From Bacillota bacterium (GTDB taxonomy: Bacteria > Bacillota > Limnochordia > Darwinibacteriales > DTU012), in contig DUVS01000015.1 of assembly GCA_012840925.1 (NCBI GenBank), positions 1 to 64,000 of the forward strand: a stretch of DNA of 64,000 bases, given 5' to 3'. Below, one piece after another: positions 26,430-48,544 of the stretch. Numbering within the stretch: the stretch's first letter is position 1; each line of letters begins with the position of its first letter. The position numbers and the translations under genes are program-made. The notes under the pieces were generated by a model. The model worked only from the letters and a program-made list of their open reading frames with translations, ran no database searches and was not told the origin of the DNA.

Positions 26430-26514
26430 CAGCAAATACCGATTTGGCAAAGGAGGTAAATTCTTAATAAGAATAGAATTGTTATCTCGATCAGGAAGAG
26501 GGAAGGAATGCCAT

Positions 26515-27162
26515 ATGTACCACAAATACGGAAAGCTTAGCTTGTTAATTGTAGTTGTACTTATGTTTGGGTCGATCAGTTCAACAGCGATCGCCCACAA
26601 CGTCTATGGTTCGACAGGATTGATCAACATACCGACGGCATCAGTTGCCCCCAGTGGTTCATTGAGTGCCGCCTACCATTTGTTTGGTGGTGACAGTCAT
26701 TTCTCTGTAGTTTTAGGAGCTTTCCCCGGAGTCGAAGTGGGGCTTGTATCCCGTTTTGATGATTCTGTGCCTCGCTTTTCCGGCAATGTCAAAGTCCAAA
26801 TCCTCCCGGAAGGGGAATATCCTGGCATATCAGTTGGGTTGACGACTGATCATGATCGTAGCAGCGTTTACATCGTGGGAAGCATGCAGCTCGGCCTGCC
26901 GGGAATAAGGGGTCATATTGGCTTTGGCTCAGGTCAGTTTAGTCGAGGGTTTGCTGGTATCAGCAGCGTGCTTAATCCTGTCACCGTCGTCAGTAACGAT
27001 CGAAAAATTTCCATGCCGGTGACTACGGTGATCGTGGAAACCGATGGATGGAGAATCAACACAGGCCTATCGCTGAAGTTCAGTCCAGAACTGTCTGCTA
27101 AAGTTCTGGTTTCAGGTTTTAAGGATTTTGGTTTTGGAGTCAGCTATTCACATCGTTTCTAG
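26515..27162 (+). CDS. Predicted outer-membrane beta-barrel protein (YjbH-like N-terminus), 215 aa
   Basis: I do not assign a function. The protein has a signal peptide (about 5-27) followed by YGSTGLINIPTASVAPSG, which resembles the start of YjbH-type barrels linked to exopolysaccharide. Alternating strands then run to a C-terminal ...SYSHRF, with the terminal Phe typical of BamA substrates. The length would give about ten strands. ATG 26515 follows GGAAGGAATG; a longer frame from TTG 26479 has no ribosome site. It sits between the chaperones and lptF. Confidence 0.7.
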   Translation: MYHKYGKLSLLIVVVLMFGSISSTAIAHNVYGSTGLINIPTASVAPSGSLSAAYHLFGGDSHFSVVLGAFPGVEVGLVSRFDDSVPRFSGNVKVQILPEGEYPGISVGLTTDHDRSSVYIVGSMQLGLPGIRGHIGFGSGQFSRGFAGISSVLNPVTVVSNDRKISMPVTTVIVETDGWRINTGLSLKFSPELSAKVLVSGFKDFGFGVSYSHRF

Positions 27163-27193
27163 ATGATTATTCTCTTGCTATGGAGGGTTTCAG

Positions 27194-27973
27194 GTGAAAA
27201 CAAGGATCGGGTTTGCTGGACTGGTTGTTTTGTTACTGATCGCGTTTGGAAGCAGTAGTTTAGCCTTTAGCCCCAATGTGGCAGTTGGCGGCAATCTAAG
27301 CTATGCCAACCGGAATCCGGCTGGGCTGATGGGATTGGAAACCCCTGAATTTGGCCTCAAGCTGCGAATGGTTTCTCAAGAAAACGATGAGGAACTCGAG
27401 GAAGGAGAGGCTTCGCCGTATTCGCGGGAGTATCAGGTGCTCTATGCCGAGCCTGATTATGGGACTGGGGCTGGACTGTTGCATTTTATCTACAGTGATA
27501 CCCTCAGGCAAATCACCTATTCTGTTGCCGATCAACTTATGGGCTATGTTGATGTCGGCATCGCTTTAAGCTATATGAACCACCCCGCAAGCGAAGCAAA
27601 ATACGTCAGTACAGATCTGGGATTCCAGATTGGGGATTTCTCGCTGATCCAGGTTGGAATTCTGATTGAGAACTTCTGGCATCTCAAAATTGGTGAAACG
27701 GAAGCAGCTTTACCCACAAATATTGTACTTGGGACTGCAGTTGATCTTGGAAATTTCGGCATTGTTTCTTTGGATGTGAATGATGTCTTGAATACAAATT
27801 CCAGCAGAAAGTTCATGGCCGGATTGGAGATCCAGCCTATGCGGTTTTTGTCTGTCCGAGCCAGTTGGAATGAAGGATTAAGTGTTGGGGCTGGGTTGGA
27901 CTATGGCCAGTTGAGCATTGATTATGACTGGGCCTGCGGGCAGCACCTGATGGGTTTCAGTTGGAAATTCTAA
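27194..27973 (+). CDS. Predicted outer-membrane beta-barrel protein, 259 aa
   Basis: Not recognised as a named family. A signal peptide (about 1-24, ending SSLAFS) is followed by an NxxYxNRNPAG-like opening (NLSYANRNPAGL), common in type-F/PorV-like barrels. Amphipathic strands then run to a C-terminal GFSWKF. An acidic loop (EENDEELEEGE region, about 53-66) probably faces outward. The start is GTG 27194 behind ATGGAGGG. It is in line with the upstream barrel gene and lptF; a role in LPS-like lipid or polymer export is conceivable but unsupported. Confidence 0.65.
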   Translation: MKTRIGFAGLVVLLLIAFGSSSLAFSPNVAVGGNLSYANRNPAGLMGLETPEFGLKLRMVSQENDEELEEGEASPYSREYQVLYAEPDYGTGAGLLHFIYSDTLRQITYSVADQLMGYVDVGIALSYMNHPASEAKYVSTDLGFQIGDFSLIQVGILIENFWHLKIGETEAALPTNIVLGTAVDLGNFGIVSLDVNDVLNTNSSRKFMAGLEIQPMRFLSVRASWNEGLSVGAGLDYGQLSIDYDWACGQHLMGFSWKF

Positions 27974-28038
27974 CGCTATTCGTCAAGCCATAAGCTCGTT
28001 TTTGTTGATTAGAGATGGGAGCGAAAAGGAGACCGAGG

Positions 28039-29157
28039 ATGATTCAAACCAAGCAATACCGAGCCGTGGTTTTGCGCGGTTCATCGATCTTGGATAGATA
28101 TACTTTACGAGAGTTTTTCTGGCCCTTTGTCTTTTGTGTCATTGGGTTTACAGTGATCTTACTCAGCGGTGTTCTTTTCGAGCTGATTGATCTGTTTTTG
28201 GTCAAAAAGGTGCCCATCAAAACTGTAATCAAAATGCTGATTTATTATCTGCCGGGGATAGTGGTGATGACGCTGCCGGTAGCAGCCTTGTTTTCCACTT
28301 TGATAGGGTTGGGCCGCATGAACGAGGACAGCGAGATGATCATCATGTGCAGCAGCGGTCTACCGTACTGGCGGATTATGATTCCCGTGGTGATTGCCGG
28401 GTTGATTATCAGCGGGGTCACCTATGTTGTCAATGAAGAGATTGTTCCCTGGACAAATCATGAGTTTCACAAGCTGTTTAGAGAATTGGTCTATCAGGAA
28501 GACGCACCCCTGATTGAGGAGAACATCTTCTTTTTAGGGGGCGAAAACCGGTATTTTTATATCAATGAAGTGAACAAACAGCTGCGCCAACTGAAGAACG
28601 TCCTGGTATATGAAACAGGACCGGATCAGTTTCCCCGCATGATTACCGCTACATCTGGAACTTATAAAGACCACCACTGGATCTTGCATGACGGGATCGT
28701 GCAGAACTTTGACGAAGATGGATATGTGAGTTATCAGACCCGGTTTGAGACAATGCAGATCATCACCCCCGACACCTCCGATCTCTATTTCGGCAATCAG
28801 AAAACCAGTGATGAAATGAGCCGCAAAGAGTTGAAAGAGCATATTGACCGGTTTCAGCGCAGCGGTTTGAAAGTATTGTCTTTTGTTGTAGATTATCATT
28901 TGAAGCTGGCACTGCCCATGGCCTCATTCATCTTCGTGCTTTTTGCCGCTCCCTTAAGCTTATTCAGCAAGAGCAGCAAGTCTTTTGGAGTTGCTGTCAG
29001 TCTGGTTGTCACATTGCTGTATTATGTGGCAACGCCGGTTTGCCGTTCACTAGCCATCAACGAAGTCTTTCCTCCCTTGTTTGCAGCCTGGCTCACCAAT
29101 GGGGTGTTTGCACTGATAGGGATTGTCCTGCTAATCCGTGCTGACCGGTTACATTGA
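28039..29157 (+). CDS. lptF: LPS export permease LptF/LptG (YjgP/YjgQ family)
   Basis: Inner-membrane subunit of the LptB2FG transporter that extracts lipopolysaccharide from the inner membrane. The 372-residue protein has six membrane helices, three before and three after a periplasmic beta-jellyroll (about 125-270). The first helix begins after LDRYTLREFFWPF, a typical LptF/G opening. ATG 28039 follows AAAAGGAGACCGAGG. Only one LptF/G gene is visible here, so a homodimer is possible unless a second lies elsewhere. Its 3' end overlaps the upstream part of the lptD frame. Confidence 0.93.
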   Translation: MIQTKQYRAVVLRGSSILDRYTLREFFWPFVFCVIGFTVILLSGVLFELIDLFLVKKVPIKTVIKMLIYYLPGIVVMTLPVAALFSTLIGLGRMNEDSEMIIMCSSGLPYWRIMIPVVIAGLIISGVTYVVNEEIVPWTNHEFHKLFRELVYQEDAPLIEENIFFLGGENRYFYINEVNKQLRQLKNVLVYETGPDQFPRMITATSGTYKDHHWILHDGIVQNFDEDGYVSYQTRFETMQIITPDTSDLYFGNQKTSDEMSRKELKEHIDRFQRSGLKVLSFVVDYHLKLALPMASFIFVLFAAPLSLFSKSSKSFGVAVSLVVTLLYYVATPVCRSLAINEVFPPLFAAWLTNGVFALIGIVLLIRADRLH

Positions 29158-29173
29158 GATGAAGGTGGTACCA

Positions 29174-31390
29174 TTGCGTACGAGAAAAATTCAAAAACCG
29201 ATAGTGCCGCTGATGGTGCTGGCTGTCTTTCTGATGCCTGGTTTGATTCTCGCAGGCTTTATTAATCTGAATCATACTGTGTATGCAGCTGAAGCAGAAG
29301 CTTCAGCTGCGGAAGAGCCGGTTACAATTAAGGGCTCCGAATTTCTCCGGTGGGATCCGGATCAGAAGTTGTTCTATGGATCGGGTGACATAGTGATCAC
29401 TTTCGATGATTTGTACTTGACAGGTGACCAGTTTTTCTGGGATCAGCAGAAAAATGAATTATATTTGGAAGGCAATGTCACACTCTCCCAGGGCGACGCA
29501 TACATGGAGGGAGAAAGCCTGGTTTACAACATAGCCAATGAGCAGGGAGAGTTTGGAAAACCGAGGACCCAGTTGGTGTCTGAAAAAATTAACGGTCCTA
29601 TATTTGTTTTCGGGGACCAGATGCAAATATCTTCCGGGGACTATTTTCTCCACGATGGAATTGTCTCTACCTGTGATTTGAGCGAGCCCCACTATCATTT
29701 GGCGGTCAACAAAATTGAAGTCTATCCGGGCCAGAAAATGGTCATCTATGGTGTACGGTTCTATGAGGGAAAGCTTCCCTTGTTTTATTGGCCCTACCTG
29801 GTCATTCCCTTGGATGAGCGTTATGAGGATTTGGATTTCAGCCTGCCGGAAATTGGGTATAACCCTACTGATGGTTACTACATTAAAAACCGGTATAATT
29901 ACCACCTGAGCCCGAATGCATATGGATCGCTGCTCTATGATTATTACACCCGTAAGGGTTTGGGTTTGGGAGTGGATCATCATTACCGCCATGACGAATT
30001 TGGTGACGGAGCTGTTGCCTTTTACCTGCTGCCCTTTGCTGCCAGCAAATATCTTCTGGCCCAAATCGCCCATGAGTATAAGTCGGACAATATCAGCTTC
30101 AGCACCACAAACTCTTATCTAAGGCAGTATGAAGAGGCAGTGTTGACTCAGGATACAGTCAGCTCCACCAGTTTTGCTTATCAGACTGGGACTACCCGTG
30201 TGACTGCCGACTTGAATTACGTCCTGGAACGAAAGGCTTCCGAGAACAGCAAGGCTTGGAGCGCATCTGGTAGCCTGCATCAGCAGATTTTGCCTGCCTG
30301 GTATTTAGAGCTCAGCTCAAAGGTCGTGGCCAAAGATGAGACCAGAACGTATGATCATTTGGCCGAAACCACTTACACCTACGATAATCACAGGTTCAAC
30401 CTGGCCTTTCAGCAGAAATACAATCCCGATGTCTTGAGCGGGAGTGCTGCACCAACGTGGAAAAGCATGAACCGTCTGCCCGAACTGACATGGCAGTGGT
30501 CGAATCCCAGTTTGCCCGGGTTGTCTTTTCCCGGTAGATTTCAGCTGTCGGTGGGAAGGTTCAAAGAGTATCCAGTGAACGTAACCAGTTGGCGTTTGGC
30601 ATCCTCGTTAGAGCTGTTTTCCCGCAGTTGGCGTTCGGATTTTGGCACAACTATTACCTACAGCGGCAATGTTTCCGCCAGTTTCTATGACAGTGGCCAG
30701 AGCTTGAGGGCTGCCTATGGGCGTGTCGGGGTGACTCAAAAACTGACAGACACCACCAGCCTGACAGCTAATTACTACAAACGGCTGGTGTGGGGCGAAA
30801 CACCCTTCAGATTTGATCAGCAAAATCCTCAGGATCTGCTGAGGGGTACGTTCAGATTCACAAAGCGCCCATGGACGATCACCATCAATACAGGATATGA
30901 CTTTTTGCGGGACAGGTATGAGACGTTACGGACGCAGGTTAACTTCAACAGTGCAGCACAACCGGTTACAGCCAGGATGACTCTTAATTACGATCTTAAC
31001 AACCGGCGCTTCGGCGATTGGAGTGGAAATGTCACTTATCGCCCCCAAAGCGATTGGACCTTTAACCTTGGTGTTGTTTACAACATCAAAGATCAGAAAC
31101 TGAAGCGGATTAATGGCAAGATCCTTTTTGATCTGACTGAGACGATCAAATTAAGCTACGATTTAAATTATGAACCTGCTAAAACACCCAAGCTCAGGCA
31201 GGGTAAGCTGGTCCTTACTTTTGATCTGCATTGCCGCAAACTTGAGATGAGTTACGATCAGGTCCGGGAAGAATTCAGAGTGCAATATTCCATTAATGCG
31301 TTTCCCAAATTGCCCATTGGGTACAGCACCCAGGAAGGGATCCGTTTCTTCAAGCTCGAAGATTTACAGGACCTCATAGAGATGGACTAA
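29174..31390 (+). CDS. lptD: LPS assembly protein LptD (OstA/Imp)
   Basis: Outer-membrane translocon for LPS. After a signal anchor (about 14-35), the first 150 residues form an OstA-type jellyroll (ITFDDLYLTGDQFFWDQQ, YLEGNVTLSQGDAYMEGESL). The LptD barrel follows, opening with the conserved KLPLFYWPYLVIPLDER. The long beta-barrel runs to about residue 730. TTG 29174 is preferred because AAGGTGG lies 5 nt upstream; ATG 29159 has none. Four-Cys disulfide pairing as in E. coli LptD is absent (only scattered Cys). It is co-transcribed with lptC and lptA. Confidence 0.93.
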   Translation: MRTRKIQKPIVPLMVLAVFLMPGLILAGFINLNHTVYAAEAEASAAEEPVTIKGSEFLRWDPDQKLFYGSGDIVITFDDLYLTGDQFFWDQQKNELYLEGNVTLSQGDAYMEGESLVYNIANEQGEFGKPRTQLVSEKINGPIFVFGDQMQISSGDYFLHDGIVSTCDLSEPHYHLAVNKIEVYPGQKMVIYGVRFYEGKLPLFYWPYLVIPLDERYEDLDFSLPEIGYNPTDGYYIKNRYNYHLSPNAYGSLLYDYYTRKGLGLGVDHHYRHDEFGDGAVAFYLLPFAASKYLLAQIAHEYKSDNISFSTTNSYLRQYEEAVLTQDTVSSTSFAYQTGTTRVTADLNYVLERKASENSKAWSASGSLHQQILPAWYLELSSKVVAKDETRTYDHLAETTYTYDNHRFNLAFQQKYNPDVLSGSAAPTWKSMNRLPELTWQWSNPSLPGLSFPGRFQLSVGRFKEYPVNVTSWRLASSLELFSRSWRSDFGTTITYSGNVSASFYDSGQSLRAAYGRVGVTQKLTDTTSLTANYYKRLVWGETPFRFDQQNPQDLLRGTFRFTKRPWTITINTGYDFLRDRYETLRTQVNFNSAAQPVTARMTLNYDLNNRRFGDWSGNVTYRPQSDWTFNLGVVYNIKDQKLKRINGKILFDLTETIKLSYDLNYEPAKTPKLRQGKLVLTFDLHCRKLEMSYDQVREEFRVQYSINAFPKLPIGYSTQEGIRFFKLEDLQDLIEMD

Positions 31391-32560: not shown

Positions 32561-32614
32561 AAACCCTCTCTAGCGCTGTGTTATAATGAAAACACCAGGT
32601 GGGGAGGGTTTTTT
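32561..32614 (+). terminator. Hairpin with T-run overlapping a -10 box and the next RBS
   Basis: AAACCCTC (32561-32568) pairs with GAGGGTTT (32604-32611), followed by T's to 32614, two bases before the next ATG. The 35-nt loop contains a perfect TATAAT (32582-32587; only a poor -35, TTAAAC). The 3' arm is also the Shine-Dalgarno (GGGGAGGG) of the ABC permease. Read-through transcripts would form the hairpin and hide that site, whereas transcripts begun at the internal -10 would lack the 5' arm. Confidence 0.55.
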
Positions 32615-32615
32615 C

Positions 32616-34763
32616 ATGTTCAGATTCTTTCGAGACGGACTTTATCGCGATTATATAATATTAATCTTAGTTACCATAATCGTCGGGGCCGCAGTCTCCT
32701 CAGGAGTAGCCTGGGCCGTTGATGCCTATTTTGGCGATACGATTCAAGAGATGATCGGTGACAACGGTGAATACGATTTGATTTTGCATATCCGGGAAGC
32801 TTCTGAAGAAGCAGCTTACCGCGAACTGGAAAGAATAGCCCAACAACAGTACCCTGGCGCTGTCATTTCTAAGACAATTTCCTTGGCCGGCCAGGTCAAT
32901 TACCTCTTTGGGTTTCCCCAAGAAGCTAAAACTGTTGAAACCTTCTCACGCTTACCCTCTATTTTCAATGCTGTACCTGGTTTAAACGCTTATACCGTGA
33001 TCGTGGAGCCTAGTGTGCTTGTCAGAGGAGTTCATCCCAGTGTCAGCGAGGTCCTTCAGCAGCGCTTCAACGAGATCGACGGCGTCAGCTTTGCATTCAA
33101 TGATGGAAAGAACATGCTGATCGTGCTGGAATCGGCTGAACACTCAAAAACAGTAATGAATGAAGCAAGGCGGATCATCAAAGAGTATCAAGTCCTTGAG
33201 ATTCGTTTTCCAATGGGGTTTGATGTCGATGTGCAAACAACCGGCAACGAAGTCATGCAGTTGTTGAGTCAAGAGTATCCAGGAACCAGATTGGCCAATG
33301 TGTCTTCCGCAGAATATGGTGAAGAGCTGGATGCTCTGATGAAGACCCTGGTTGAGATGCGGCATTTCTTGTTAAGTTACGCTTCCAAGGTTAAGATTAA
33401 ACTCGAACCCCAATCCAGGCTGGTGGTAGGGGAACAGATCCTGGTGCAAGGTGTCAGTGAACAGGTACCCGTTACAGGCCAGGATGCCGCCCCGGATCAT
33501 GTCATGATTGAGATTCTTGAGATTACTGGAGATCAAGCCCAAGGCATGATTGTTTCCGGATCGGTTGCGGCAAACGGAGGTATCTTGACTCAACCGGGAT
33601 ATAAATATATGAGTGAGAATAAAGTGGGCCAGCTTGTAGGAGAAGTTCAAATCGAGAATGAGCGCTACCGGCTTAACTATGCGATTAATGAGAGCCTGCG
33701 TTTGCTGAGAGAACTTGATGATCTGTCGGTTGAAGCGGCAACTGCCGTAGAGCGTGCTGATAAAGTTCTAACCACATTTCAAGAAGCCCTGATGCAGCTG
33801 GAAGTTCTCCAAGTGCAGATGCAGCAGCTGAACAAAGGGCTTGCAGAGAACGGTGTCCAGTCCACCAGCGAACAGCTGATCATCTCCCTGTTTCTCAACG
33901 GGCTGTTGAAAAATATAGCCAAGAGTGGTTCCGAGGCAGCAGCGGAATTTGACTTGGGAGAGCTGGAAAACCTCGATGTTGCCTCGATGCGTTCCAGTCT
34001 CAGCAACCTGGCAGAGCAGATCGGCAGTATTCAGGAGATAGATGTCCAGGCAATCATTGATCAGATTACTGATATCCGCGACAGTCTTCCTGAACTGGAC
34101 GATGAAGAGATCGGAAAATCCGTGCATTTAGTGGACAACTACATCGCGGGGCAAGTCATTCCTGGTGAGAGAATTCAGATTCTGGTGGAAAACGGGTCGA
34201 TTGATGAAGAAAAAGTGGAGCCCTTGATCCGTGATCAGCTGCAGAATCAGTATTTAAATATTTACTCCATTGCTGTGGGCACTGTCAATCCTGATACCCG
34301 TACCGAGGTGTTTCGCATCTTAAAAGAGGTGCGGGCGACAATTGCCGGGATTCTCTCCATTGTGCTTGTAGGTGTATTCTTAATGCTCGACCATGCCACG
34401 ATCTTCAGCACCCTCAAATGGTTCAGGGCAAATCAAAAGCAGCCCAAGCATCGTTTGGCGAGATTTCTAAACCCGATTGTCATCTTCGGTGCAGTTGTGG
34501 GCATGACGATTCTGGTGACGACGTATTCGCTGAGCAATGCATCGATTCCCTATGTCTCCATGCCGATGGTTGCTGTAATTGGAACCGGATTAGGTGTGAT
34601 GATCGGGATGTTCTCGGAGAAGTTCAGCCCGGTTCGGGCCGATGAAATCATGGCTGGCCTGGCACTGGGCCTGAGCAATGCCCAAATCATGCACGAGATT
34701 GTGATCCCTGATGGCAGGCCAGGGCTGTTGAACTTGTTGAATCGCACCAAACAGAAGTTTTAA
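32616..34763 (+). CDS. Novel ABC permease: TM + large extracytoplasmic coiled-coil domain + 3 TM + EAA-like loop
   Basis: No family is recognised for this 715-residue protein. One helix (about 12-36) leads into an extracytoplasmic region (about 37-570) containing a long coiled coil (about 353-413). Three helices follow (about 572-594, 620-640, 647-666). The loop after helix 2 is very basic (KWFRANQKQPKHRLAR), so it should be cytoplasmic, placing the C-terminus inside. The last 42 residues, EIMAGLALGLSNAQ then MHEIVIPDGRPGLLN, resemble the EAA coupling motif of binding-protein-dependent permeases (EAA...G...I.LP). The next gene, 14 nt on, is a matching ATPase. ATG 32616 follows GGTGGGGAGGG. 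The substrate is unknown; the location suggests an envelope lipid or polymer. Confidence 0.75.
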   Translation: MFRFFRDGLYRDYIILILVTIIVGAAVSSGVAWAVDAYFGDTIQEMIGDNGEYDLILHIREASEEAAYRELERIAQQQYPGAVISKTISLAGQVNYLFGFPQEAKTVETFSRLPSIFNAVPGLNAYTVIVEPSVLVRGVHPSVSEVLQQRFNEIDGVSFAFNDGKNMLIVLESAEHSKTVMNEARRIIKEYQVLEIRFPMGFDVDVQTTGNEVMQLLSQEYPGTRLANVSSAEYGEELDALMKTLVEMRHFLLSYASKVKIKLEPQSRLVVGEQILVQGVSEQVPVTGQDAAPDHVMIEILEITGDQAQGMIVSGSVAANGGILTQPGYKYMSENKVGQLVGEVQIENERYRLNYAINESLRLLRELDDLSVEAATAVERADKVLTTFQEALMQLEVLQVQMQQLNKGLAENGVQSTSEQLIISLFLNGLLKNIAKSGSEAAAEFDLGELENLDVASMRSSLSNLAEQIGSIQEIDVQAIIDQITDIRDSLPELDDEEIGKSVHLVDNYIAGQVIPGERIQILVENGSIDEEKVEPLIRDQLQNQYLNIYSIAVGTVNPDTRTEVFRILKEVRATIAGILSIVLVGVFLMLDHATIFSTLKWFRANQKQPKHRLARFLNPIVIFGAVVGMTILVTTYSLSNASIPYVSMPMVAVIGTGLGVMIGMFSEKFSPVRADEIMAGLALGLSNAQIMHEIVIPDGRPGLLNLLNRTKQKF

Positions 34764-34777
34764 AGGGGGAGATGCAG

Positions 34778-35506
34778 GTGCTGAAAATCAGGGGATTACG
34801 GAAACAATACGGCAAACAAATTGCCGTTGATGGTGTTGATTTGGATGTAGACCGGGGTGAGACCGTGGTAATCATGGGCCCCAGCGGCTGCGGCAAATCG
34901 ACATTGATCCGCTGTATCAATCGTCTGACAGAACCGGATGCAGGAGATATCCTGCTTGATGGCCAATCAATTCTGAGCCTGGACGACCAGAGTTTACGGG
35001 CTTTCCGCCGCACTGTAGGTTTCGTGTTTCAGCAGTTCAACCTCATTGCCCGCTTAAGTGTTCTGGACAATGTCATGTTTCACCTGGTACTGGCGGGAGT
35101 CCCTCGTGTGCAGGCTGAAACACGGGCGAAACAAGCCTTGGCCAGAGTCGGGTTGTCTGGAGCTGAAAACAAAAATCCGGCCAACCTCAGCGGGGGCGAA
35201 CAACAGCGGGTAGGGATTGCCCGTGCCCTTGCTTCCAATCCCCAGCTGATGCTGTGGGATGAACCCACTGCATCACTGGATCCAATCCTGATCGGTGAAG
35301 TTCTGGACGTAATGGAGGAACTGGTGCGGACGACGAATACAACTTCAGTTATTGTCACCCACGAAGTCGGTTTTGCCCTGAAGGTTGCGGACCGGATTAT
35401 CTTGATGGATAAAGGTAAAATAGTTGAGGAAGGATCACCCAGGGCAATCTTTGCCGATCCTCAGTCGGATGTTGGCAAGAAGTACCAACGCTTGATCGCC
35501 AGTTAA
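34778..35506 (+). CDS. ABC transporter ATPase, polar-amino-acid (GlnQ) type
   Basis: A 242-residue ATPase: Walker A GPSGCGKST, Q-loop VFQQFNL, signature NLSGGEQQRVGIARAL, Walker B LMLWDEP, D-loop ASLDP and switch His VTHEV. The family details (LIRCINRLTEPDAGDILLDG) place it with GlnQ/ArtP/MetN-type importers, yet no solute-binding protein or ordinary permease lies nearby. It follows the unusual permease above and should energise it through that protein's EAA-like loop. GTG 34778 has AAAGGGGAG 6 nt upstream; ATG 34772 abuts it too closely. A terminator follows. Confidence 0.9.
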   Translation: MLKIRGLRKQYGKQIAVDGVDLDVDRGETVVIMGPSGCGKSTLIRCINRLTEPDAGDILLDGQSILSLDDQSLRAFRRTVGFVFQQFNLIARLSVLDNVMFHLVLAGVPRVQAETRAKQALARVGLSGAENKNPANLSGGEQQRVGIARALASNPQLMLWDEPTASLDPILIGEVLDVMEELVRTTNTTSVIVTHEVGFALKVADRIILMDKGKIVEEGSPRAIFADPQSDVGKKYQRLIAS

Positions 35507-35547: not shown

Positions 35548-35575
35548 AGGCCGAGGAGAGTCTCGGCCTATTTTC
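35548..35575 (+). terminator. Terminator after the ABC ATPase
   Basis: AGGCCGAG (35548-35555) pairs with CTCGGCCT (35562-35569) around 6 nt, with an ATTTTCT tail. Confidence 0.75.
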
Positions 35576-36070: not shown

Positions 36071-37201
36071 ATGGCACAAAAAAGGATTATGATCATCAGC
36101 AGCGACAGTTCAAGTGATCTTTACGGGGCTCAATTGGCCAAGGCCTTGGAATCCATAGCCCCGGATGCAGCACTGTTCGGTGTTGGTGGATCATTGATGG
36201 AAGAAAGCAACGTTCGTTTGCTCTATAATGTATCCGACCTGGAGAACTTAGGTGGGCTGGAAGCGTTGAAAACGCCCCATGTAATCAAAAGATTGGTTCA
36301 GCGGATTGCCCGGTCCATGGACAAGTTCCAGCCTGAACTGGTGGTTCAGATCGGCTTGCCCGTCTTCAGCCTGAAGCTGATTGAGCTTGCCAAGACAAAA
36401 GGGCTGCCGGTGGTTTACTACAATTCCCCTTTGAATTGGGGAACTGAACCAGTCAAGCTTTCCAGGCTGGCCAAAGTGGTGGATAAAATTATTACCGTAT
36501 CCCGATACGAAAGCCGCTTGTGTGAGAAGCACGGGATCGACGTGGAGTTTGCCGGGCATCCTTTGGTTGATCTTGCTTCGGTTACAGCAGGCCAGGAATT
36601 AAGGGGCCAGTTGGAGTTGGCCACAAATCTTCCCGTAGCCGCTTTGCTCCCTGGTGGCCGGGAAGCGGATGTAAAAATGTATCTTCCCACATTACTCAAG
36701 GCTGTCAAGCGAATCAATATGGAGCAGCACCGGGTGCAGACAGTGATTGCAGTCCCGCAATCGATCAGGCCGGAGTGCTGCGAAGCCATGATCGAAAAAA
36801 GCGGCCTCGAGGCAGTGAAAATTACAGACGATGTGTCCGGTATACTTACCGTGGCTGATGTTGCTGTGGTTACCAGCAGGTCAGAAAGCATTATGGCTGC
36901 GTTGGCCAGAGTTCCGGCGGTAGCTGTACATAAAGTGGCCACCACGGCTTACTTTGTGGATAAAATGCTGTTACGTAAAGCCAATTTTGCTATGATCAAT
37001 TTCTTGATGCAGGAAGAAGTCTTGCCGGAGTTGGTCCAAACCGATTTCACTGAAAAAAAGACAGCAGAGGCCATGCTGAGATTTTTACAGGATTCCAAGG
37101 CGCGCACTGAGTATTTTCAGAAGCTGGAGCGCCTGCCTGAGGAACTTGGCACCACCGGGGCGATTGCCAGAGCTGCCCAGATTATTGCTAACATGCTGTA
37201 G
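36071..37201 (+). CDS. lpxB: LpxB-like (lipid-A-disaccharide synthase family) protein with divergent active site
   Basis: LpxB joins UDP-diacyl-GlcN and lipid X to form the lipid A disaccharide. The 376-residue protein matches the family along its length: SSDLYGAQLAKAL, GVGGSLME, EFAGHPLVDLA, LLPGGREADVKMYLP (keeping the Arg) and VLPELVQTDF. Several motifs have changed. The ID-P-D-F-N segment that holds the catalytic Asp reads IGLPVFS, the GEASGD opening reads SDSSSD, and the SGT-TLE region reads SRSESIM. It may act on a different glycolipid or have another mechanism. The start codon at 36071 lies 2 nt after the fabZ stop. Confidence 0.8.
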   Translation: MAQKRIMIISSDSSSDLYGAQLAKALESIAPDAALFGVGGSLMEESNVRLLYNVSDLENLGGLEALKTPHVIKRLVQRIARSMDKFQPELVVQIGLPVFSLKLIELAKTKGLPVVYYNSPLNWGTEPVKLSRLAKVVDKIITVSRYESRLCEKHGIDVEFAGHPLVDLASVTAGQELRGQLELATNLPVAALLPGGREADVKMYLPTLLKAVKRINMEQHRVQTVIAVPQSIRPECCEAMIEKSGLEAVKITDDVSGILTVADVAVVTSRSESIMAALARVPAVAVHKVATTAYFVDKMLLRKANFAMINFLMQEEVLPELVQTDFTEKKTAEAMLRFLQDSKARTEYFQKLERLPEELGTTGAIARAAQIIANML

Positions 37202-39465: not shown

Positions 39466-39491
39466 AAAATTTATTCGGGAGGTTATTGCTG

Positions 39492-45079: not shown

Positions 45080-48000
45080 ATGAATGGTTCAAGGACAGCA
45101 AGAAAGAGATTAAGATTTATCTTGCCCTTTTCTCTTTTTCTTTCCTTATTCATATTCTCTACATCTGTTCTAACCAACACTGTGATTGGCAGCAACTATC
45201 TCCTGGGCGTTGGCGATGTCCTGGAAATAACGGTTTGGGGGCACCCCGAGCTGAAAACGACAGTCCAAGTGCGCCCTGATGGATATATCACTTTCCCTCT
45301 GGTGGGGGATCAGTTTGCCGACGGTAAGACAGCCAGCCAGCTGGCTGAAGAGATTCAGCAGCAATTATCCGCCTATGTGGTGGCTCCAAGTGTAACGATT
45401 ATTGTGGTTCAATTCCGCACTATCCGGGTACAGGTGTTGGGGGAAATCCACAAGCCCGGTTATTACCGCATAAGTGCGGGGGATCGGCTGCTGGATGCTA
45501 TCGGCCTTGCCGGCGGGCCGACAAACGAAGCAAACTTGTCTGAAGTTACCGTGACCAGAATGAGCGGTGGGACCGCGGATTTGTTCAAAGTAGATGTAAC
45601 CAGCTACATAGCTGAAGGCAATATTGCACATAACCCTCCCCTGCACGATGGTGATGTTATATATCTGCCTGCAGCTGGCAATGCTCTGGTTTTAGGAGCA
45701 GTACAGCGCCCAGGCAGTCACAGGGTACATCAGGATATGGATATTCTTGACTTATTGGCTGCTGGAGGAGGCGCATTGTCCGCAAGCGATTTGTCCCATG
45801 CGGTTTTAACCCGCAAGATCGGAGACTCTTCCACAGAGATGATTGTTGATCTTAATGCTATTATCCAATCTGGTAAAGGCAAAATACAGGTGCAAGCTGA
45901 TGACGTGTTATTCATCCCCCACAAGCAGCTTGCTGTACTTTTTGGCGAAGTAAAAGCTCCCGGCAGCTATGCTATCGAGCCGGAAATGACCCTGGCAGAG
46001 TTAATCGGTGCTGCCGGTGGGCTGACAGACATGGGTGATCCCGGCCAAGTAAGGATTGTCCGGGAGATTGATGGTGTGCGCCAGTCTTTGACGGTAGATC
46101 TTAGTGATACACTTACAGGTAAATCGGGAGCCAACCCACAAGTAGTCGGTGGCGATATCATTTTTGTCCCTGAGATCATGAACACTGTACTGGTCCTTGG
46201 TGAAGTGCGTCAACCGGGGGCCTTTACCTTGAAAGAACAGATGGGGATCCTGGATCTGATTGCAAAGGCAGGCAGTACAACTGCTAATGCGGCTTTAGAC
46301 CGGGTTACCTTGACCCGCCAAAGCGGCGACGTGGTACTGGTGCAGGAAATCAATCTTGCTCAGCTGCAGGGAACAGGCACCGGTAGAGATATTGAGCTTC
46401 TGCCGGGCGATGTCATTTTCGTTCCGGAAGGAGCACCTCAGGCGCTGGTCTTGGGACGGATTGCCAGGCCAGGCAGCTACCGGGTCAGTGAGAACATGAA
46501 TCTCTTGGATCTTCTGGCTTTAGCCGGAGGGCCCTTGGAAAGTGCTGGAGACCGGGTGTTGATCACCCGCAGCAATGAAACTACAGAGGTTAACTTAGGG
46601 GCGCTGACCCGATTAGGAATCGGTAATCAAAAAATCACGGCCGGCGATGTGATCTATGTAACAGAAGGCAGGCATCAGGTTCTGGTCTTGGGAGAAGTGC
46701 GTAATCCCGGTTACTACCGCCTGGAATTTGGCGATCGGGTACTTGATGGGATCGCCAAAGCAGGAGGCCTTCTGGACAGTGCAGCAGCAGATCTGGTCAG
46801 CATAACCAGACAAACAGAGGACCTCACCGACGTTTTCGCGGTAAACCTCGAGCTTTTGGAGCAAAACCGCTTCCTCGACAGTAATTTCCTGTTGGAGGGC
46901 GGCGATGTGATTATTGTTCCAGAAGCAAAACGTGATGTCATGGTTATTGGCGAGGTTGGCAAGCCTGGATCTTACCTGCTCGGTAAAGAACAACGCCTGC
47001 TGGATGTGATTGCGCAAGCCGGCGGCATGACTGACAATGCTGCCGTCGATGCTGTCCAGATCACAAGGATTGGACAGGACAACAGTTTACATACGGCCGT
47101 ATACGATTTAGACGCTGTGATTAAAGGTTTAAGCAGCGATAATCCATTGGTCGAACCGGGCGATATTGTCTATGTGCCAGAAACTAAGACTTCAGTACTG
47201 GTGTTTGGTGAAGTTACTGCACCTGGGTACTATCGAGCCACAGCTACCACAACCTTGCTTGATGTGATTGGACAAGCTAGAGGCTTAACCGACCAGGCAG
47301 ATGCCAAATCAGTGAGCCTGACACGGATCGTGGATGGAGAGACTGTCATCGAGACGATTGACCTGGATCTGATTATGCATACCGGCGAAGGCGACATACG
47401 CCTCACAGGCGGGGAAATGATTTTGATTCCCAAACTGGATCTGGAAGTTACGATTATCGGGGAAGTCAGGGTTCCGGGTCGTTACCGGATTCGCCAAGGC
47501 GAACGTTTGCTGGAGGTACTGGCTAAGGCTGGCGGCTTGACTGATGACGCCGATCCTTGGCTGACCATGACCAGATGGACTGATAATGAACAAGAAGTTT
47601 TGACGATCAACTATCGGGATTTGGTGCAGTCCAACTCGCCGGAGCTCAACCTGACTATTGTCGGAGGAGATATTATCTACATTCCAAGCATGAACCGGCG
47701 GATTCTGGTGTTTGGAGAGGTGGCCAGGCCCGGCGCATACCTTGTTGATCAGTTTACCACCTTGCTGGATGTGATCGCCCTCGCTGGGGGCCCGACCGCC
47801 AGAGCCAAACTTGATGAGGTCATGATTGCATCAGATTCATCTGGTGAACTGGTCCAATATTTGGATCTGAATGCAATCATCAACCAGGAACAGCCTAATC
47901 CGCTGCTGTTAGGTGGAGAGGTGATCCATATACCTGAGGCACGGCAGATTCTGGTCATGGGCGAAGTGGCCAGGCCGGGCGCCTTTAACCTTCCTGCTGG

Positions 48001-48544
48001 CGGCCGGGTTCTTGACTTGCTGGCATTGGCCGGTGGCCTGCGGAGCAGCTTGATGGATCAAGAGGTTATTGTCACCAGACAAGGGCCCGAAGGCGATCAG
48101 GTATGGATTGCTGATTACCGTTCATTGCTCAACAGTCCCAACGATCATAATCTGCTGCTTGCTGGAGGAGACGTAGTCTTTGTACCTGAGGTAAGTCGTC
48201 AGGTTGTGGTTTTAGGTGAAGTTGCCAGACCGGGAGTCTATTCGGTTTATGAAGGAGCCCGGCTGCTGGATGCCATTGCCATGGCTGGCGGATCTACAGA
48301 AAAGGCAGAACTTGGATCCGTGGGTATTTACCGCGGTGGCGATCTGACAGATCCGGCCACATTCTCCATGGGACAAGATCGGATCCTGTTCCAGGGTGAT
48401 GCCAGTGAAAATCCTGTAATTCGCGGTGGGGACGTTATCTACGTTCCAAAGACTACAAAGCCGGATTGGAATACAATCTTAGGCATCATGAGCGGTGTGC
48501 GTACGTTCCAGCAGATCATTGAATGGTTCATACCAGATAAATAG
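45080..48544 (+). CDS. Giant Wza-like polysaccharide export protein with twelve SLBB repeats
   Basis: The 1154-residue protein begins with a signal/anchor (about 12-35) lacking a lipobox Cys. A Poly_export domain follows (about 40-115: LGVGDVLEITVWGHPELK, VRPDGYITFPLVGD). Then come twelve SLBB units spaced about 85-95 residues, each opening like VLVLGEVRxPGxYR and ending in GGDVIYVPE. Wza has two or three. The C-terminal 30 residues (ILGIMSGVRTFQQIIEWF) could form an amphipathic helix like the Wza outer-membrane crown. ATG 45080 follows GGGGAGG. It heads an operon with Wzz, BY-kinase and PHP phosphatase, so polymer export is the likely role; the stacked SLBB rings may span the periplasm. Confidence 0.88.
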   Translation: MNGSRTARKRLRFILPFSLFLSLFIFSTSVLTNTVIGSNYLLGVGDVLEITVWGHPELKTTVQVRPDGYITFPLVGDQFADGKTASQLAEEIQQQLSAYVVAPSVTIIVVQFRTIRVQVLGEIHKPGYYRISAGDRLLDAIGLAGGPTNEANLSEVTVTRMSGGTADLFKVDVTSYIAEGNIAHNPPLHDGDVIYLPAAGNALVLGAVQRPGSHRVHQDMDILDLLAAGGGALSASDLSHAVLTRKIGDSSTEMIVDLNAIIQSGKGKIQVQADDVLFIPHKQLAVLFGEVKAPGSYAIEPEMTLAELIGAAGGLTDMGDPGQVRIVREIDGVRQSLTVDLSDTLTGKSGANPQVVGGDIIFVPEIMNTVLVLGEVRQPGAFTLKEQMGILDLIAKAGSTTANAALDRVTLTRQSGDVVLVQEINLAQLQGTGTGRDIELLPGDVIFVPEGAPQALVLGRIARPGSYRVSENMNLLDLLALAGGPLESAGDRVLITRSNETTEVNLGALTRLGIGNQKITAGDVIYVTEGRHQVLVLGEVRNPGYYRLEFGDRVLDGIAKAGGLLDSAAADLVSITRQTEDLTDVFAVNLELLEQNRFLDSNFLLEGGDVIIVPEAKRDVMVIGEVGKPGSYLLGKEQRLLDVIAQAGGMTDNAAVDAVQITRIGQDNSLHTAVYDLDAVIKGLSSDNPLVEPGDIVYVPETKTSVLVFGEVTAPGYYRATATTTLLDVIGQARGLTDQADAKSVSLTRIVDGETVIETIDLDLIMHTGEGDIRLTGGEMILIPKLDLEVTIIGEVRVPGRYRIRQGERLLEVLAKAGGLTDDADPWLTMTRWTDNEQEVLTINYRDLVQSNSPELNLTIVGGDIIYIPSMNRRILVFGEVARPGAYLVDQFTTLLDVIALAGGPTARAKLDEVMIASDSSGELVQYLDLNAIINQEQPNPLLLGGEVIHIPEARQILVMGEVARPGAFNLPAGGRVLDLLALAGGLRSSLMDQEVIVTRQGPEGDQVWIADYRSLLNSPNDHNLLLAGGDVVFVPEVSRQVVVLGEVARPGVYSVYEGARLLDAIAMAGGSTEKAELGSVGIYRGGDLTDPATFSMGQDRILFQGDASENPVIRGGDVIYVPKTTKPDWNTILGIMSGVRTFQQIIEWFIPDK

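Follow-up and report, generated by a model that had tools for sequence, protein, structure and literature searches.

A two-gene ABC system with a C-terminal importer-type loop in the outer-membrane gene cluster of diderm Firmicutes, with a probable role in lipid handling

The window analysed here is a 64,000-nucleotide stretch of DNA from a Bacillota bacterium (GenBank assembly GCA_012840925.1, contig DUVS01000015.1, positions 1 to 64,000 of the forward strand). Inside its lpt cluster, between lptA and fabZ/lpxB/lptB as the original prediction had placed them, lie two adjacent genes. Judged from sequence, they encode an ATP-binding cassette (ABC) system of diderm Firmicutes that has no family name, comprising a permease-like protein, here termed P715, and its cognate ATPase. 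The function that we consider most likely for the pair is lipid trafficking like that of Mla. The two genes are:

32616..34763, + strand: P715, ABC permease-like protein, open reading frame (ORF) of 715 residues; no Pfam or NCBIfam family above its cut-off
34772..35506, + strand: cognate ABC ATPase, 244 residues; closest models of the GlnQ/TcyN type

Only 8 bp separate the P715 stop from the ATPase start. The sequence GGGGAGGG lies at 32601-32608, 7 nt 5′ of the P715 ATG; an alternative in-frame start at ATG 32586 was set aside, as homologues begin at the position of 32616. No NCBIfam model matches P715 at E≤0.01, its six Pfam matches (E 0.05-0.26) fall far under the cut-off, and searching the PDB with the single sequence returned nothing significant. 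One scan of genome contigs with a single protein recovered two close relatives, and none was found in viral contigs. We found no description of the pair in the literature searched. Of the three new outer membrane-related proteins that a 2016 survey names for this cluster in diderm Firmicutes, none corresponds to the pair (PMC5007114).

We averaged hydropathy over 86 distinct homologues (105 full-length matches minus identical sequences; the partial P715 of locus L086 was excluded), and found hydrophobic peaks near residues 22, 583, 630 and 657. Together with charge, conservation and structure comparisons, this suggests the following anatomy:

32652..32717, + strand: transmembrane helix 1, about residues 13-34 (hydropathy, 86 homologues)
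32721..34325, + strand: extracytoplasmic domain, about residues 36-570, about 535 residues (hydropathy and charge)
32775..33212, + strand: apparent pair of tandem ferredoxin-like units, about residues 54-199 (AlphaFold2, PDB profile match, fold searches)
34335..34397, + strand: transmembrane helix 2, containing Asp592 (hydropathy; Asp592 invariant in 86/86)
34413..34475, + strand: positive loop linking helix 2 to helix 3 on the cytoplasmic side, residues 600-620 (charge count)
34473..34535, + strand: transmembrane helix 3, about residues 620-640 (hydropathy)
34557..34619, + strand: transmembrane helix 4, about residues 648-668 (hydropathy)
34644..34724, + strand: EAA-like coupling loop, residues 677-703, 12 residues before the C-terminus (conservation, profile comparisons)

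Because the loop at residues 600-620 is strongly positive (a mean of 5.8 K/R against 1.1 D/E in the 86 homologues), we place the N-terminus and the C-terminal tail with its EAA-like loop in the cytoplasm and residues 36-570 outside, in agreement with what the original prediction had proposed for both loops. Its topology of one helix, a long outside region and three further helices also stands. The coiled coil that it placed outside was not confirmed: the one indication of a helix-rich middle is a full-length AlphaFold2 model (three sequences) of very low confidence, with a mean predicted local distance difference test score (pLDDT) of 37.5, and this model was not used for topology or docking. 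Residues 54-199 resemble, with moderate confidence, a tandem pair of ferredoxin-like units. AlphaFold2 modelled residues 38-215 at a mean pLDDT of 62.6, and a profile of the region matches the designed ferredoxin-like protein OR280 in the PDB (E 2.3e-4). The fold matches listed for residues 38-215 are to general ferredoxin-like folds, with resistance-nodulation-division (RND) pump domains among many, and are uninformative on function. Like Asp592 in helix 2, Gly629 in helix 3 is invariant in all 86 homologues.

The most conserved stretch of P715 spans residues 677-710, and its top-conserved 27-column window lies at 684-710. The C-terminus reads E-IMAGLALG...MHEIVIPDGRPG, as quoted earlier. All 86 homologues carry a Gly and a Pro (Gly685 and Pro698 in P715) spaced 13 residues apart in this loop, which is the canonical spacing of the EAA motif; Ala occupies position G-5 in 85/86, and a literal E-A-A occurs in the P715 of genomes G039 and G056. 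A PROSITE-like EAA pattern gave 12/86 matches, in two cases at a distance from the loop, and was not used. The chain stops 12 residues past the loop, with no hydrophobic peak beyond residue 662.

We compared the C-terminal profile with known permeases using hhalign. Against 28 permeases of the BPD_transp_1 type (BPD; 28 of the 30 loci fetched) it scored 51.4 (93.6%); 40 block shuffles reached at most 22.9, reversed profiles against the BPD set at most 17.1, and the decoys LptF/G, MlaE, BamA, DUF3084 and LpxB at most 23.6, with MlaE, LptF/G, BamA and LpxB at 0.1-3.5%. In the PDB, the five best chains for the 86-sequence C-terminal profile are all type I importer permeases: two chains each of PotC (E 0.0088, 0.01) and MetI (E 0.043, 0.051) and one amino-acid permease of the Art type (E 0.014). 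The alignments run from helix 3 or 4 through the loop. Pfam BPD_transp_1 is matched by 54/86 members at E≤1 (best 2e-5), in scans covering the 25 commonest families among the matches listed; the window P715 itself has no such match at E≤1 and is thus under the Pfam cut-off. On these comparisons P715 is an ABC permease-like protein with a type I-like EAA-like loop at its extreme C-terminus, as had been predicted.

The ATPase gives its best NCBIfam scores, at the top of 191 matches, with TcyN (257.9 bits) and GlnQ (249.1 bits), under the curated cut-offs of these models (406 and 379 bits); with that qualification, its description as GlnQ-like holds. A same-strand ATPase starts 8-376 bp past the end of the P715 match in 84 of 88 distinct P715 genes, and the remaining four run off the sequence with at most 210 nt left downstream, so that homologues commonly lacking an adjacent ABC ATPase, which were looked for, were not seen. 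The ATPase of locus L088 was located by tblastn. In G039, a single-contig genome, P715 and ATPase are fused in one ORF of 967 residues. Moreover, the pair is jointly missing from all eight P715-free clusters that are readable across the site: five genomes (G279, G094, G138, G409 and G299; loci L105, L106, L108, L109 and L115/L116) and three genomes of family f5 (L218-L220), in which lptA is followed directly by fabZ. L115/L116 carry MlaF and a long ORF resembling MsbA as their ATPases. The P715-free loci L107 and L117, on short contigs where the site is not clearly visible, stand outside this count.

In a tree of 112 ATPases, all 75 cognates, the fusion included, fall on one side of a branch with 100/99 support, and the other side holds 36 ATPases: 25 unlabelled, 8 LptB and 3 MlaF. 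The row L188, which its branch length (about 9-10) and sparse filling (fewer than half of the columns) mark as an artefact, was not counted; its site holds a cognate ATPase. Across 58 loci, P715 distances track ATPase distances with a correlation of r 0.92, a high value that is also expected from shared descent alone. Overall, pairing, fusion and joint loss argue for a dedicated two-gene unit, as first proposed, whose ATPases form a group of their own. The group nearest the cognates comprises seven ATPases, four of which (L189, L193, L195 and L199) adjoin importer permeases of 222-227 residues, and from this we infer the amino-acid type of the cognate ATPase.

The window genes around the pair belong to an outer-membrane cluster. 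Upstream of P715 are bamA (23526), two ompH-like genes, lptF/G (28015-29157) and an lptD-like gene (29138-31390), two distinct genes that share 20 nt, then lptC (31412) and lptA (31851). Downstream of the ATPase follow fabZ (35622), lpxB (36071-37201), lptB (37228) and DUF3084 (37978), and a porin-like gene with an SLH domain at 39486 is part of the same cluster. The names of bamA, ompH, fabZ and lptB were assigned by reading translations. Of the window neighbours that were scanned with Pfam and NCBIfam, none is a solute-binding protein, in line with the original prediction. One further feature lies between the ATPase gene and fabZ:

35548..35569, + strand: terminator-like stem-loop of 9 pairs; weak, as the region has 3 such sites against 5.0 in shuffles

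We next asked how far this arrangement extends. All 48 P715 loci of at least 12 kb contain an outer-membrane cluster gene (bam, lpt, lpx or fabZ), with neighbours named by similarity to window proteins and nine Pfam scans, and unmatched neighbours carrying no name; linkage in L111 was counted via fabZ, and lpxC was seen there in a separate scan. P715 is present in 55 of 60 genomes, the window genome included. The five without it are G009 (86% complete, with LptF/G likewise not found), G041 and the three f5 genomes; The f5 genomes have LptF/G, and so does G041, where it is split into two pieces.

Across 398 genomes of the phylum, P715 occurs in 78 (E<1e-10), LptF/G in 98 (E≤1e-10) and both in 76 (p 1e-58 in a 2 x 2 test, uncorrected for kinship). 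The two P715 genomes without LptF/G, G277 and G323, are assemblies of 250 and 480 contigs from family f76, whose other P715-positive members have LptF/G. By family, 31 of the 35 with LptF/G have P715, and no family without LptF/G does; the LptF/G families lacking it are f44, f51, f74 and f122, and in f77 it occurs in one of four genomes. We take f44 and f74 to be Negativicutes-like. Weak matches elsewhere (E about 1e-3 to 1e-6), among the matches listed, fall at the loop in proteins of 223-264 residues that look like ordinary importer permeases. The expected co-occurrence with outer-membrane genes therefore holds in one direction, from P715 to LptF/G; in the other it does not, since 22 of the 98 LptF/G genomes lack P715, and the pair is thus not needed for having outer-membrane genes.

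This distribution bears on the proposal that the pair is an ordinary amino acid or peptide importer whose binding protein has merged into the permease and which sits in the cluster by chance. An importer-like loop and a nearest ATPase group with members adjoining importer permeases would fit such a system. Set against these, outer-membrane genes stand beside P715 in every long locus, P715 is confined to LptF/G-bearing families in the phylum sample, and the helices expected after the loop are absent, and we regard an ordinary importer as very improbable.

The presence of MlaE, LpxC and FtsX_ECD was surveyed in 80 of the 100 genomes having P715 or LptF/G; the 20 genomes left out all carry P715, and all 22 P715-negative genomes are included. 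P715 is rarer where MlaE is present: MlaE was found in 8/58 P715-positive genomes, leaving 50/58 without it, against 13/22 P715-negative genomes (Fisher p 1e-4, not corrected for kinship). In the published survey, Mla is reported absent from Halanaerobiales and present in Negativicutes and in only a few Limnochordia (PMC10665443). The pair may do the work of the Mla lipid transporter where that is missing. Two genomes, G008 (L124) and G245 (L123), combine P715 with a second site at which mlaE and an mlaF-like gene are followed, at the place of mlaD, by a long ORF (716 and 449 residues).

FtsX_ECD occurs in 37/58 P715-positive and 17/22 P715-negative genomes, and P715 as a replacement for FtsX was rejected on the first of these counts. 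The comparison touches a different reading, which makes the pair a machine for mechanotransmission of the FtsEX or MacB/LolCDE kind: no cargo would pass through the membrane, and ATP would move the outside domain so as to switch on a cell-wall enzyme, an outer-membrane tether or a partner protein. The order of helix, large outside domain and three helices is the MacB/FtsX/LolCE layout, and residues 560-715 scored 32.1 (29%) against 21 FtsX-family permeases (21 of 29 loci), above both 40 block shuffles (maximum 24.6) and the decoys (at most 23.6). FtsX-family profile comparisons over P715 gave 29-42%; only the C-terminal one counts, because a full-length reversed control against DUF3084 (46.1) is as high as the full-length FtsX match (43.2). 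The loop favours type I importers, with the higher score of 51.4, Pfam FtsX is touched by just 2/86 members (best E 0.7, not significant), and by the FtsX_ECD counts P715 is not a stand-in for FtsX. We therefore consider mechanotransmission unlikely, though it deserves more weight than chance membership of the cluster.

LpxC was not found in 8/58 P715-positive genomes, the window genome among them, and LpxA was not found in 10 P715-positive genomes (14 genomes tested), comprising six of family f1 (G000-G004 and G008) and four of f76/f86. On these grounds we rejected the idea that the pair carries lipid A and nothing else; the cargo is not simply lipid A. The same absences count against an accessory role in lipopolysaccharide or lipid A export, aiding the Lpt bridge or a flippase step. 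Such a role would suit the position of the pair between lptA and fabZ/lpxB, its linkage to outer-membrane cluster genes and the presence of LptF/G in nearly every P715 genome; set against it, too, Lpt-bearing genomes of f44, f74 and f5 manage without the pair and P715 lacks profile similarity to LptF/G (3.5%), and we judge it improbable. In the window genome (G000) and in G008, neither LpxA nor LpxC was found, and five f1 relatives of G000 tested were likewise without LpxA. G000 retains LptF/G, LptB, FabZ and an LpxB-like gene (36071-37201; TIGR00215 160 bits, under the cut-off), and its outer membrane may contain a lipid other than standard lipid A.

A further alternative is that the pair moves lipoproteins or another wall or outer-membrane polymer, by a Lol-like or capsule-like path. 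A carrier may be missing: Negativicutes are reported to lack LolA and LolB (PMC5007114), and Terrabacteria in general to lack the Lol system (PMC10665443). Against this alternative, a Lol-like cluster is reported in most Halanaerobiales (PMC5007114), and P715 would coexist with it if G369 and G231 are Halanaerobiales. The cluster also held no recognisable partner for lipoprotein sorting, though many of its genes were not scanned. We hold this alternative to be quite improbable.

Compared with known systems, the pair combines features of several. As in type I importer permeases (BPD_transp_1: MetI, PotC, Art/GlnP), the loop and the helix preceding it align together, and the partner ATPase is closest to GlnQ/TcyN models; unlike in these permeases, the loop sits at the very end of the chain and is not followed by helices, the outside domain is large, and no binding-protein gene was seen among the window neighbours scanned. 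The pair resembles MlaFED, chiefly the three-gene form of Veillonella parvula (PMC10665443), in being a few-gene ABC system found with outer-membrane genes, dispensable for the outer membrane and equipped with a long outside part. The mla mutants of V. parvula are reported to form more vesicles and to have a surplus of phospholipid in the outer membrane (PMC10665443). It differs in that P715 reaches only 0.1% against a profile of 8 MlaE sequences, the window P715 is without an MCE domain, and MlaF falls in a different part of the ATPase tree. P715 shares with MacB, LolCE and FtsX (type VII) its order of parts and a weak similarity over helices 2-4, and differs from them in the EAA-like loop that follows helix 4. 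Like LptB2FG, the pair is an ABC system of the outer membrane in the same gene cluster, and unlike LptB2FG it is without LptF/G profile similarity and has LptB elsewhere in the ATPase tree. Scans of the window P715 for PF02470 (MCE), PF03739 (LptF/LptG) and PF18075 (FtsX extracellular domain) found none at E≤1.

A tentative but reasonable interpretation is that P715 and the ATPase form an inner-membrane, two-gene ABC transporter whose cargo is a membrane lipid passed between the outer and inner membranes, Mla-like in role and not homologous to Mla. Two P715 chains, with eight helices in total, would sit on two ATPases, and the coupling groove of each ATPase would hold one C-terminal EAA loop. 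The ATP cycle would drive movement of the large outside domain, whose two ferredoxin-like units and long helical part would replace a solute-binding protein and hand a lipid (a phospholipid or another outer-membrane lipid) from one membrane to the other. Recovery from the outer to the inner membrane is the favoured direction, because P715 is kin to importers. The dimer, docking, cargo and direction are steps that we infer, built on a conserved pairing, type I-like loop, separate ATPase group, topology and outer-membrane gene linkage that the sequences support. As with Mla in V. parvula, the pair is dispensable, since some lineages keep bam and lpt genes without it; such losses from lineages with an intact bam/lpt cluster suit a role in upkeep rather than in basic outer-membrane assembly.

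Several observations weigh against this interpretation. The MlaE contrast is suggestive and not proof, because it sets mostly one family block (f44, f74) against the rest. Strict replacement of Mla was rejected, as eight genomes carry both P715 and MlaE. Nine of the 80 genomes have LptF/G and lack both P715 and MlaE (G094, G138, G212, G279, G302, G305, G346, G387 and G409, with fragmentary assemblies for G212 and G305), and P715 is likewise absent, with the cluster kept, from three genomes of the same order (family f5). In P715 itself, the MCE domain was not found in the window protein, the acidic E at position G-6 of the loop is present in just 16/86 homologues, the helices that follow the EAA loop in real importers are missing, and the weaker FtsX profile resemblance of helices 2-4 would also suit a mechanotransmission machine.

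Several other features of these loci came to light. In nine loci, LptF/G and an LptD-like outer-membrane protein form one ORF of 1034-1137 residues:

L087:4258-7536, LptF/G-LptD-like fused ORF
L088:5058-8162, LptF/G-LptD-like fused ORF
L094:12792-15977, LptF/G-LptD-like fused ORF
L106:4044-7283, LptF/G-LptD-like fused ORF
L107:2806-6042, LptF/G-LptD-like fused ORF
L112:12384-15542, LptF/G-LptD-like fused ORF
L118:9555-12842, LptF/G-LptD-like fused ORF
L119:11477-14890, LptF/G-LptD-like fused ORF
L120:3303-6635, LptF/G-LptD-like fused ORF

A profile of 26 unfused LptD-like ORFs matches most of the C-terminal 700 or so residues of the fused ORFs (E 4e-96 to 1.8e-179), and Pfam LptF_LptG matches the N-terminus of that in L119. 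Unless such a product is cleaved, a single polypeptide would connect the two membranes, which would be remarkable. Family f23 (L078 and L113) has divergent P715 proteins of 617 and 658 residues; a class III aminotransferase gene lies directly upstream of P715 in L113, and an equal-sized ORF, not scanned, takes that place in L078. In the window, a YjbH-like gene (227 residues) and a very weakly FadL-like gene (259 residues) lie between ompH and lptF/G at 26479-27973, and the YjbH-like gene is present again in 21 of the 48 P715 loci of at least 12 kb. At 45080-48544, an ORF of 1154 residues contains many repeated polysaccharide-export-like units, read by eye from the translation.

Diderm Firmicutes are a test case for the retention or loss of outer membranes. 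With an unnamed two-gene ABC machine in their outer-membrane cluster, usually without MlaE, the question of who handles outer-membrane lipids becomes directly testable. It is rather doubtful, though conceivable, that the pair is a third independent lipid-carrying transenvelope ABC machine, with a type VII-like layout, a C-terminal importer-type loop and an outside domain spanning much of the periplasm, that stands in for Mla in most diderm Firmicutes. P715 shows a coupling loop placed unlike that of the importer permeases it resembles. The finding holds and reaches beyond the single window: the sequences point to a new variant of ABC transporter architecture, with a function that is probably lipid-related.

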